Part shown: piece after piece, positions 41,949 through 45,018 of the stretch
How the letters are laid out: the number at the start of each line of letters is the position of its first letter
How positions within the stretch are numbered: the stretch's first letter is position 1
Assembly (NCBI GenBank): GCA_001599915.1
Contig: BCIG01000011.1
Coordinates: forward strand, 124,001 to 188,000
Direction: 5' to 3'
Length of the DNA stretch: 64,000 nucleotides
DNA from: Symbiotaphrina buchneri
Taxonomy: Eukaryota > Ascomycota > Symbiotaphrinales > Symbiotaphrinaceae
The notes under the pieces: generated by a model
What the model was told of the DNA's origin: nothing
What the model saw: only the letters and a program-made list of their open reading frames with translations
Databases searched by the model: none
Position numbers and translations under genes: made by a program

Positions 41949-42424
41949 CTTCCCCAAGGTAATCAGTAATGGCACGCCACTTTTTTGGTTACCACACGCC
42001 CCTCTTATCTATTTGCAATCTCATCTATCTGCATCGTATCAAATCTATCCGTATATCTCATCTATCTACATTGTATCGTATCTATCTGTCCGTATATCAG
42101 CATCGTAGCCTATCCGTATCGTATCTCATCTATCCAGTTAATCTTCATGATGGATAGATCGATCAACCAATAACCTGATGAAGAATAACATATGTCAGAT
42201 CCATCCGTATATCGGTATCGTATCTTATCAAATCATATCTGTCTGGTTTATCTCCGTGATGGATAGACCGATTAATCGATCAATCGGTCAAGGCCGCCAT
42301 CTTATACCTGTTGAAATAACTATCCGCATATCAAAGTGGGATTAGTTGTCCTTTGCTTTCTGTATGAGAGGGGCGTGCAGTTACCAAATACAGGGGCGTG
42401 CCATTACCGATTACCCTTCCCCAA
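41949..42424. mobile_element. MITE-like element with 9-bp target duplication (Mutator-type candidate)
   Basis: The 9-bp word CTTCCCCAA occurs at 41949-41957 and again at 42416-42424. Between them, 41958-42415 (458 bp) begins with GGTAATCAGTAATGGCACGC and ends with its near-perfect inverse. The terminal inverted repeats span about 50 bp at roughly 85% identity with one indel, and each holds two GCACGCC words. The inside is AT-rich with no coding potential: runs of TATCTGTATC-like words and two related blocks around 42120-42170 and 42225-42275 (TCATGATGGATAGATCGAT, TCCGTGATGGATAGACCGAT). A 9-bp duplication and long inverted repeats suit non-autonomous Mutator-like DNA transposons. It sits between the transporter and Med1 genes. 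Confidence 0.85.
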
Positions 42425-42680
42425 TTGGCGGCTGGCTGGTGACGGTCCCTGAACCCCTGAACGCGGTTGCTGCCGCTCAACGCGGAAAAAGGTATTTCCG
42501 TAAGAAACAATTCCCCAGAGCTTCAACCTCGAGCGCGCACAAGGACGACCATTGAGACCTGGCTACCAACGCACCAACACCGCTACGCAGGATATTCGCA
42601 TCGCCGAGTATCCATCTACCGAATGTCTAGAATCTAGAAAGCTGCCCCCTCCGAGTGCGAAGCTCCTCTACCCTCGCATC

Positions 42681-45018
42681 ATGGCGACGCCTACGCCATC
42701 CGCGTCCAAACATCCCGCGGGGCACCAGGCGGCCATGACGCCCAATTCCTTCGCAAACCACCTGGCCGCCGTCTCCCCTCTCCCAGTCAGCGGTGGCCGG
42801 TCGCAGAGATCTCACAAGTCTCCTCTGAACGCCAGTTCCATCCCGCCATTCAACCACCCCTCTACGGCCAGCAACCCTTTGACCTTCGACTCGCCTTCCG
42901 CGGCAGCTACGCTTGGGCTCAATCTGGGAAACATGGCGACTCCCGCACGTGGCACGACGCCAGCAGCTCTGGGTGGTGCGCCGTTGACGAATGTTAGAGG
43001 CGACGATGAGGAGAGGAGGAGGAGGCTCGAGACTATACTGGCATTGCTGAAGGACAGGCCGGGCAGGGTCAGCGAAGAGGGAGTGGAGAGGCTGGCGAAG
43101 AGGATTGGTGGGCTGGATTGTTACTGGGATACGACTGACCCTGGTGTACGAGTGCTGAGCATTGCTGGAACCGTCGGGACGTTTTTGGTGGATGTGAGTT
43201 GACCGGCGTAATTCGCTTTCTGCCTCGCTCTTGAAAGCAGGTTTGCTAATTGCTACACAGGTTGAATTCCACTCGAACGTAGTCGAACGTGTAACCCTTT
43301 CCTATTCCAGCTCCAAAGAAGCCATCACTGAATCTGCACCGGACGGTTCAAGCATATTGCAAAGGGATCTGACGCCGCGAGAAGGCCAATATGGTCTCAG
43401 CACAACACTGAACGCCTTTGCTGACAATTTGAAGAGGTTGGAAAAGCTGGATAAGCTAAGCACATCGGAGATGAACTGCTTTGAAGCTGTGTCAGGGGTC
43501 TATAGCAGCCTGCGGAAGATCTTCGAACACGAGAAGACCAAGGCGAGGGAGAGTAAAGGCGATGGACCAGGAACGCGCGAGGAATCGATTGAGGAAGAAG
43601 TAATGTGCAAAAGGAGTGGTAGACCCAGGATGAATGCTGGACGAAGGGTTGGACTGAGCCTTCAATATTGGGCTGAGAAACGGCGGGTATTGCAGCTCAA
43701 AGGCAGAGGCGCCGCGAGCACAAGTTCAACAGGTGCCCACGATGCCCCCGCAGAAGGCGATGAACGCAAAATATGGTCTGCAGTTATCGAATGTGAATCC
43801 TCTCCAGCTGAGCTGTACCCGTCCATCCGAATCACGGATGAGTGGGTATCCTCACCCGTCGAAGTCGAAAAGGCACCAGACAATCAGGAGCCCCAGGACA
43901 ACCCGTTCGGACCATCTCCTTCTCATATCAATTGGCTAGAGCCGCCATCCACCTTCCTGCAGAACAGAAATTCTCAAGGCGATGCCATGGCGGTCGACAA
44001 CAGCGGCGCTCCTCAGATAGGCACAAAGCTGCCTGACGTGCGCTTCGTGGCGCGACTTGAACCCGCCGTCGTTGTACCGCTGCAGATAGCCTACAACATC
44101 TACAACTCCGTCGGTATAACTATCCCGCAGGAGACTCTCCGGCCTTATACTTTCGACGGTCTGGTGCTGCCACCGGAAGGAGAGCAGACTCCCCTCGCAC
44201 AGGGTGAGACTCGAGAAATCAGGCGGGAGAAGGGCGTGGTCGTCCTAGGTGAGGATGGACAGCCGATGGAGAAGATGCTGCAGTTCAGCTTGTACGCACA
44301 GAAGCAGGACTATGGGCGTATCGTGGAGGAGATCCCGTTTGCACATCCCAGACAGATTGTCGGATTGCTGCCTGTAAGTGCTTCACTCGTTCCCCGAGTA
44401 TCTTACATCCTACTCGCCTCAATTGGACGCCACGACAGTACCAAAGACCTCCTAGCTGACTTACTCCAGATTCTCCGGCAATATGCCTTTCTCTCGCACC
44501 TCCTTCAAGGCACCTTCCTTCCCTCCTCCAATCCTTCACACAACACAGCCGCCCACACCAACAGTTCATCCGGATCACCGAAAACGCCTACATCATCCTT
44601 CACCTCGACCTCCACCAGCACCTCTCTCGCCGACTTCTTCGCGACGCCCGTCCCCTCCAACCCCTCTATCTCCGTCTCCCTTACCACGCTCCCCGTCCCA
44701 CGCCTGACCCTCATCTTCCCCCTGGCCGCATCAACCCCCGGCACCGAAACGGCGGACGGCAGCCCCGCGGCCGCGCGGCTGGCGCACCTCACGCTGGAGA
44801 TCGGACCGGATGCAGCCGTGAGAGTCGTCGAGCAGGATATCGTGCCTGCTGGGACAGCGGAGCAGGAGGAGGCGCAAGCGCAAGCCCAAGAACCGGCTGG
44901 GGAAGAGCGGAAGGCAGGGAAGAGCTTAACGTTGGAGGATATGGCGAGAGCGTTGGAGGTATGTGAGGATCTGGGTGTGTTTGTGGAGTGGATCTCTCGG
45001 AGGATTCCTGGGCGGTAG
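42681..45018 (+). CDS. MED1: Mediator complex subunit 1 (fungal Med1)
   Basis: Exons 42681-43193, 43261-44373 and 44470-45018 give 724 residues. After a Ser/Pro-rich N-terminus come LETILALLKDRPGRVSEEGV, RLAKRIGGLDCYWD and SIAGTVGTFLVDVEF, the Med1 N-terminal pattern, then DLTPREGQYGLSTTLNAFADNL-type sequence and the block PFAHPRQIVGLLPILRQYAF, which forms when the 96-nt second intron (GTAAGT to TCCAG) is removed. Med1 sits in the Mediator middle module, linking activators to RNA polymerase II in the nucleus. The C-terminus is Ala/Glu-rich and then ends in a helix (LEDMARALEVCEDLGVFVEW). The 96-nt intron has no stop in frame. Convergent with the calponin gene. Confidence 0.85.

Follow-up and report, generated by a model that had tools for sequence, protein, structure and literature searches.

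A dispersed MITE family with 9-bp target duplications and a probably Mutator-like mode of movement in Symbiotaphrina buchneri

A 458-bp sequence upstream of the Med1 gene of Symbiotaphrina buchneri is one copy of a dispersed MITE family whose members are bordered by 9-bp target-site duplications; the family is a new one of a known kind. We interpret the element, with good confidence, as a nonautonomous cut-and-paste copy that was mobilized in trans; the transposase was most likely a Mutator-type (MULE) enzyme. Throughout, "the window" refers to the whole stretch of 64,000 nucleotides that was analyzed.

Boundaries and parts of the element upstream of Med1

The element occupies positions 41958 to 42415 of the window on the forward strand and belongs to the long-form subfamily described below. 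Reading the sequence on either side of it gives the same target-site duplication, CTTCCCCAA, at 41949 to 41957 on the left and at 42416 to 42424 on the right (both forward strand), which confirms the flanking repeat reported in an initial annotation of this DNA. When the two flanks of this copy were joined and searched against the genome, they matched their own locus only, as two segments interrupted where the element lies, indicating that the boundary of the repeat coincides with the position of the duplication.

The initial annotation described well-matched inverted ends of ~50 bp. Alignment recovered ends of ~52 bp that are indeed inverted copies, but their identity is ~85%, with 7 mismatches and a single gap in 52 alignment columns; a repeat listing puts the arms at 34 nt (82%) and 25 nt (84%). 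Three to four of these end differences are family-wide, and the consensus ends agree at 49/52 and 48/52. The left terminal inverted repeat (41958 to 42008, forward strand) comprises a 7-bp tip and two tandem units, one of the GGTAATGGCACGCC type (here AGTAATGGCACGCC) and one reading GGTTACCACACGCC, and the right one (42364 to 42415, reverse strand) likewise comprises a tip and two units. Paired GCACGCC words had also been noted in both ends. The word is present in each, twice on the right with a spacing of 23 bp, but its partner on the left, 22 bp away, is the nonidentical ACACGCC. As inverted repeats must, the ends pair when the copy is folded as single-stranded DNA (-57.8 kcal/mol; z of -4.95 against 100 shuffles). 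Between them lies a noncoding interior (42009 to 42363, forward strand) that is rich in TATC/GATA and contains an internal duplication, made up of a 55-nt pair spaced 109 bp and a 31-nt pair spaced 115 bp. Open reading frames touching the copy are at most 69 amino acids long, and Rfam returned no match at the gathering score for this copy.

Dispersed copies, target duplications, and end variants

Searched at the DNA level with the whole element, the 23.4-Mb genome (82 contigs) yielded 114 matching pieces; the best of the other copies had 93% identity. The 21-base end pattern GGTAATCRGTAATGGCACGCC had 74 genome matches at ≤2 mismatches, while its reversed control had none. These matches form 49 distance groups on 24 contigs, or 48 after two copy ends on contig C13 are joined. 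The family therefore comprises at least 48 end-defined loci on 24 contigs, together with at least 7 loci that were recovered by the whole-element search only and have no end match nearby at ≤2 mismatches; one of these 7, L025, shows both ends at looser matching.

Both ends could be located in 40 copies. For L025, L029, and L066, one end was set by hand by reading past small changes in the tip, after which L029 has an exact duplication and the other two have none. Apart from the copy in the window, the two-ended copies (39) are 164 to 594 bp long, bar one of 1,138 bp that carries a nested insert. The 9-bp duplication is exact in 18 of the 40, has one mismatch in 9, and has two or more in 13, three of which have just two. 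At this length, duplications with ≤1 mismatch flank 27/40 copies (26/39 without L029), compared with 0/1,560 mispaired flanks in which the left flank of one copy was set against the right flank of another. When exact duplications in register with the ends were counted by length, there were 18 at 9 bp, 1 at 10 bp, and none at 6, 7, 8, 11, or 12 bp. The excess over the control pairs identifies the element as a MITE with a 9-bp target duplication, as had been proposed, and the recommended genome search for other copies of its ends also bore the proposal out, with different 9-bp duplications at many sites. The refuting case named in the annotation began with an absence of other copies of the ends, which these counts contradict. 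Members of the family have the following features by which MITEs are recognized, being short and noncoding, having terminal inverted repeats, carrying duplications of fixed length at different sites, and occurring as dispersed copies. That the element is instead a chance inverted repeat or unique sequence has a probability of virtually nil, since both the end matches, absent from the reversed control, and the duplications, absent from the control pairs, speak against it and no point in its favor was found. Searches of the literature on lichen MITEs and on fungal and ascomycete Mutator-type MITEs turned up no description of the family, and four 15-base words of its ends were absent from the literature full texts searched. 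Exact matches of the ends numbered zero in viral contigs and zero in prokaryote genome contigs, a result that says little about fungi.

The insertion sites have a preferred composition. Among the 27 left duplications with ≤1 mismatch, position 2 is T/A in 26 and position 8 is A/T in 27, and the middle of the duplication is mixed. Counted on both strands, the A/T preference spans W-WT-N5-AW-W, a profile that is symmetric by construction because both strands were counted. It suggests that the target may be captured symmetrically, by a transposase dimer.

The consensus end is made up of two tandem units ~23 bp apart, preceded by a 7-bp tip, GGTAATC. The outer unit is GGTAATGGCACGCCCC on both consensus ends, and the inner unit is GGTTACCACACGCCCC on the left and GGTAACTGCACGCCCC on the right. 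One end clearly carries a single unit (≤1 error) in 5 of the 40 copies (L016, L017, L022, L067, and L083); other ends labeled as single-unit have at least 2 errors each and were left uncounted, L002 being plainly two-unit. All of the five except L083 carry duplications with ≤1 mismatch, and L016 and L017, which are each other's nearest copies at 94.7%, share the same shortened end and have different duplications. The simplest reading of these sequences is that copies with a shortened end would still be able to move; less simply, slippage may have occurred repeatedly between the tandem units once the copies had inserted. Such end-deletion variants hint at which parts of the end are needed for movement.

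Mode of movement and the search for a transposase

In the mechanism that we propose, a transposase would have bound in trans the composite ends of the element, that is, the 7-bp tip and the two tandem GCACGCCCC-containing units, and would have excised the element and inserted it at a 9-bp staggered cut; gap repair by the host would then have produced the CTTCCCCAA duplication. The enzyme class, the binding to the tandem units, and the movement in trans are what we infer here. A Mutator-type origin, raised in the initial annotation, is plausible from the anatomy of the copies (9-bp duplications and composite ends), but no transposase with the MITE ends was found. MULEs are described as making 8- to 10-bp duplications, a range that includes the 9 bp seen here, and as typically but not universally having ends of >100 bp, a length that the ~52-bp ends do not reach; 2 of 14 Aedes families have ends of <60 bp, and subterminal tandem repeats occur in 10 of 12 long-ended families of Aedes aegypti (PMC5225508). 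Hop and Mutyl, both MULEs of fungi, have target duplications of 9 bp (PMC5014426). Membership in the MULE superfamily is likely, and it stays unproven because no partner transposase was found. Given ends of ~52 bp and no transposase found with the same ends, we name the family Mutator-like for its mode of action, without classing it as a proven MULE.

Transposase profiles were searched in six frames with introns ignored. PF10551 and PF21056 gave one genome match only, to the same degenerate relic on contig C18. PF00872 had no match in the genome, nor did PF12762 (DDE_Tnp_IS1595, Merlin-type), a search that a lost partner would escape, and PF05699 (hAT) had a single genome match, below the cut-off. 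The C18 relic is a degenerate MULE-type element of 2.9 kb (L062, 3675 to 6597; C18:404174-407096) with inverted ends GGRGTGCCAGTATTCTG. Its read-through matches PF21056 and PF10551, there are three stops in the matched stretch, and it lies between 31-nt inverted arms unlike the MITE ends. In the genome, the 17-base end GGRGTGCCAGTATTCTG (≤1 mismatch) occurs at that element only. We rejected the relic as the partner of the MITE on account of its different arms and of an end pattern confined to one element; at an E value of 0.001, its read-through had no homologue among 4,864 candidates. The relic is AT-rich over most of its length (0.34 to 0.42 GC), has TTGTAT at both edges, and includes a weak FAR1-like stretch that falls below the cut-off.

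The 1,138-bp copy on C13 was also rejected, as a longer autonomous form, because a nested 817-bp insert accounts for its length. This insert (L063, 2033 to 2849; C13:704532-705348) is AT-rich, and its own CCTTAGGGG inverted ends, with TA on both sides, mark it as a nested insertion. Its end pattern (≤2 mismatches) has two further genome matches only, on two other contigs.

The one-ended loci L065, L069, L070, L073, L074, L075, L077, and L081 match the MITE consensus beyond their end, L075 over only ~92 bp, and L008, L019, L021, and L028 do likewise; those on C12, at C20:41879, and at C7:687620 were left out of this comparison. None of the loci examined combines MITE ends with a coding interior, and the Mutator-type transposase gene with the same ends that the initial annotation recommended looking for was not found in the assembly (82 contigs). 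The partner may have been lost, or it may be unassembled. With no encoding partner and no near-identical copies found, the family looks inactive in this assembly.

Mobilization by a transposase of another class, such as hAT or Merlin, or by one beyond the models searched, is unlikely, although the failure to find a same-ended partner in the assembly would fit it and a 9-bp duplication does not by itself single out MULEs. Duplications are 8 to 9 bp long for Merlin elements and mostly 8 bp for hAT elements. Here the exact duplications are 9 bp with none at 8 bp, which together with the below-cut-off match does not fit hAT, and a genome with no PF12762 match does not fit Merlin; the composite tandem-unit ends, moreover, resemble those described for MULE and Mutator/foldback elements. 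We hold it very unlikely that the family represents an orphan transposon group of early-branching Pezizomycotina, characterized by the palindromic W-WT-N5-AW-W target with its A/T edges and by composite ends of two units, and served by a transposase other than a standard MULE, whose GATA-rich interior would spread transcription factor sites next to genes like Med1.

Mutator-like movement in trans, our preferred reading, can be set beside several known systems. The target of mimp elements and of Impala is TA. The mimp MITEs of Fusarium oxysporum resemble the present family in being short, noncoding, fungal, and located upstream of genes, but they are 200 to 220 bp long, and their ends, of ~27 bp, are similar to the Tc1/mariner element Impala (PMC3599309). 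Hop of F. oxysporum and Mutyl of Yarrowia lipolytica share the 9-bp duplication, terminal inverted repeats, and a fungal host with the family, whereas both encode a transposase; the ends of Hop are perfect over 99 bp, and Mutyl is 7,413 bp long with imperfect 22-bp ends (PMC5014426). Muta1, a MULE of Aedes aegypti, and its nonautonomous derivatives likewise have 8- to 9-bp duplications and a terminal motif followed by subterminal tandem repeats, the number of which varies among the derivatives; Muta1 has nine 12-bp repeats in its 145-bp ends, shows no apparent preference among targets, and has a known autonomous partner (PMC5225508). The MITE, in contrast, has two units ~23 bp apart, an A/T-edged target, and no partner found. 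The Tm1 Mutator/Foldback family of root-knot nematodes is similar in its 7-bp outer motif with tandem repeats, its MITE-like members, and its duplications, which are most commonly 9 bp, but it differs in sequence, in its asymmetric tips, and in having a known member with a putative transposase, and no clear target consensus is reported for it (PMC3169594).

Divergence, the Med1 neighborhood, and the host

A tree of 39 copies, from which the nested C13 copy was left out, comprises a long form (mostly ~410 to 495 bp), a short form (mostly ~290 to 370 bp), and some strongly diverged copies. The copy in the window groups with the long form, and its nearest relative among the 39 compared, on C46, has 94.5% identity; the best pair among the 39 reaches 94.8%. 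An intact duplication and well-matched ends had been read as signs of recent insertion, a suggestion that these data do not support. The tip length of the window copy is 0.03 substitutions per site, and at that divergence a 9-bp duplication has a chance of ~0.58 of being mismatch free, so that an intact one is no proof of recency; nor is the nearest copy near-identical. RIP (repeat-induced point mutation) was considered as the source of the divergence; the C-to-T excess at CpA/CpG is only mild (per site, CpA 0.090, CpG 0.086, CpC 0.032, and CpT 0.061 in 16 long-form copies and CpA 0.044, CpG 0.052, CpC 0.030, and CpT 0.035 in 11 short-form copies). The diverged copies L072 (1054 to 1529), L076 (1661 to 2250), and L078 (1345 to 1938) have interior stretches that match neither subfamily consensus and could contain what is left of an older form, or else inserts nested within them.

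The Med1 gene lies outside the element, at 42681 to 45018 on the forward strand. Its ATG at 42681 follows the right duplication (ending at 42424) at a distance of 257 bp, in agreement with the figure first given. Pfam PF10744 (Med1) matches two downstream ORF pieces (42552 to 43202 and 43231 to 45018; E values of 5.4e-8 and 1.7e-94), which are presumably separated by an intron. Upstream of the element is a sugar transporter gene, recognized by a Pfam match. Insertion points were compared with random positions in the window for 38 copies, the short loci L082 and L083 having been dropped. They fall inside a stop-to-stop frame of ≥150 amino acids in 6/38 copies versus 55% of random positions; for a location no more than 300 bp from such a frame, the figures are 25/38 and 77%. 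The comparison is rough, since 7/38 have no such frame in the ~1.5 kb of flank fetched. Insertions avoid long frames, and nearness to one is ordinary, so that the proximity from which a possible effect on the Med1 promoter was first suggested is not unusual; the second comparison thus gives no enrichment near genes. Most simply, the insertion upstream of Med1 is a neutral intergenic one.

The copy in the window contains 24 GATA words (both strands) and 6 WGATAR words; elsewhere in the window, a length of 458 bp has 3.3 and 0.8, respectively. These counts, and the position of the right duplication 257 bp from the Med1 ATG, would fit an element kept as a regulatory module, its many GATA/TATC words acting as sites for GATA-type transcription factors and changing the expression of Med1. 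We nonetheless regard such a role as extremely unlikely, in view of the lack of gene-proximal enrichment (25/38 versus 77%). Moreover, most members of the family are rich in GATA (from 3 to 36 words in each of 40 copies), a property that is therefore not specific to Med1. Across the interior at 42009 to 42363, the density of GATA words is ~7 times that in the rest of the window.

The family leaves the understanding of MITEs unchanged; it puts on record clear 9-bp duplications for a MITE family of a fungus whose nearest named Med1 relatives come from little-studied lineages (Pycnora, Candelina, Thelocarpon, Sarea, and Trichoglossum). One study brought several of the classes concerned together in a broad Lichinomycetes, and another partly undid this union (PMC12238968). 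Among the best 7,995 candidates by shared words, the best-scoring named Med1 homologues, at 39 to 44% identity, are those of Pycnora, Candelina, Thelocarpon, Sarea, Trichoglossum, Xylona, and Geoglossum, and further homologues reach 49 to 52% over ~60% of the query.
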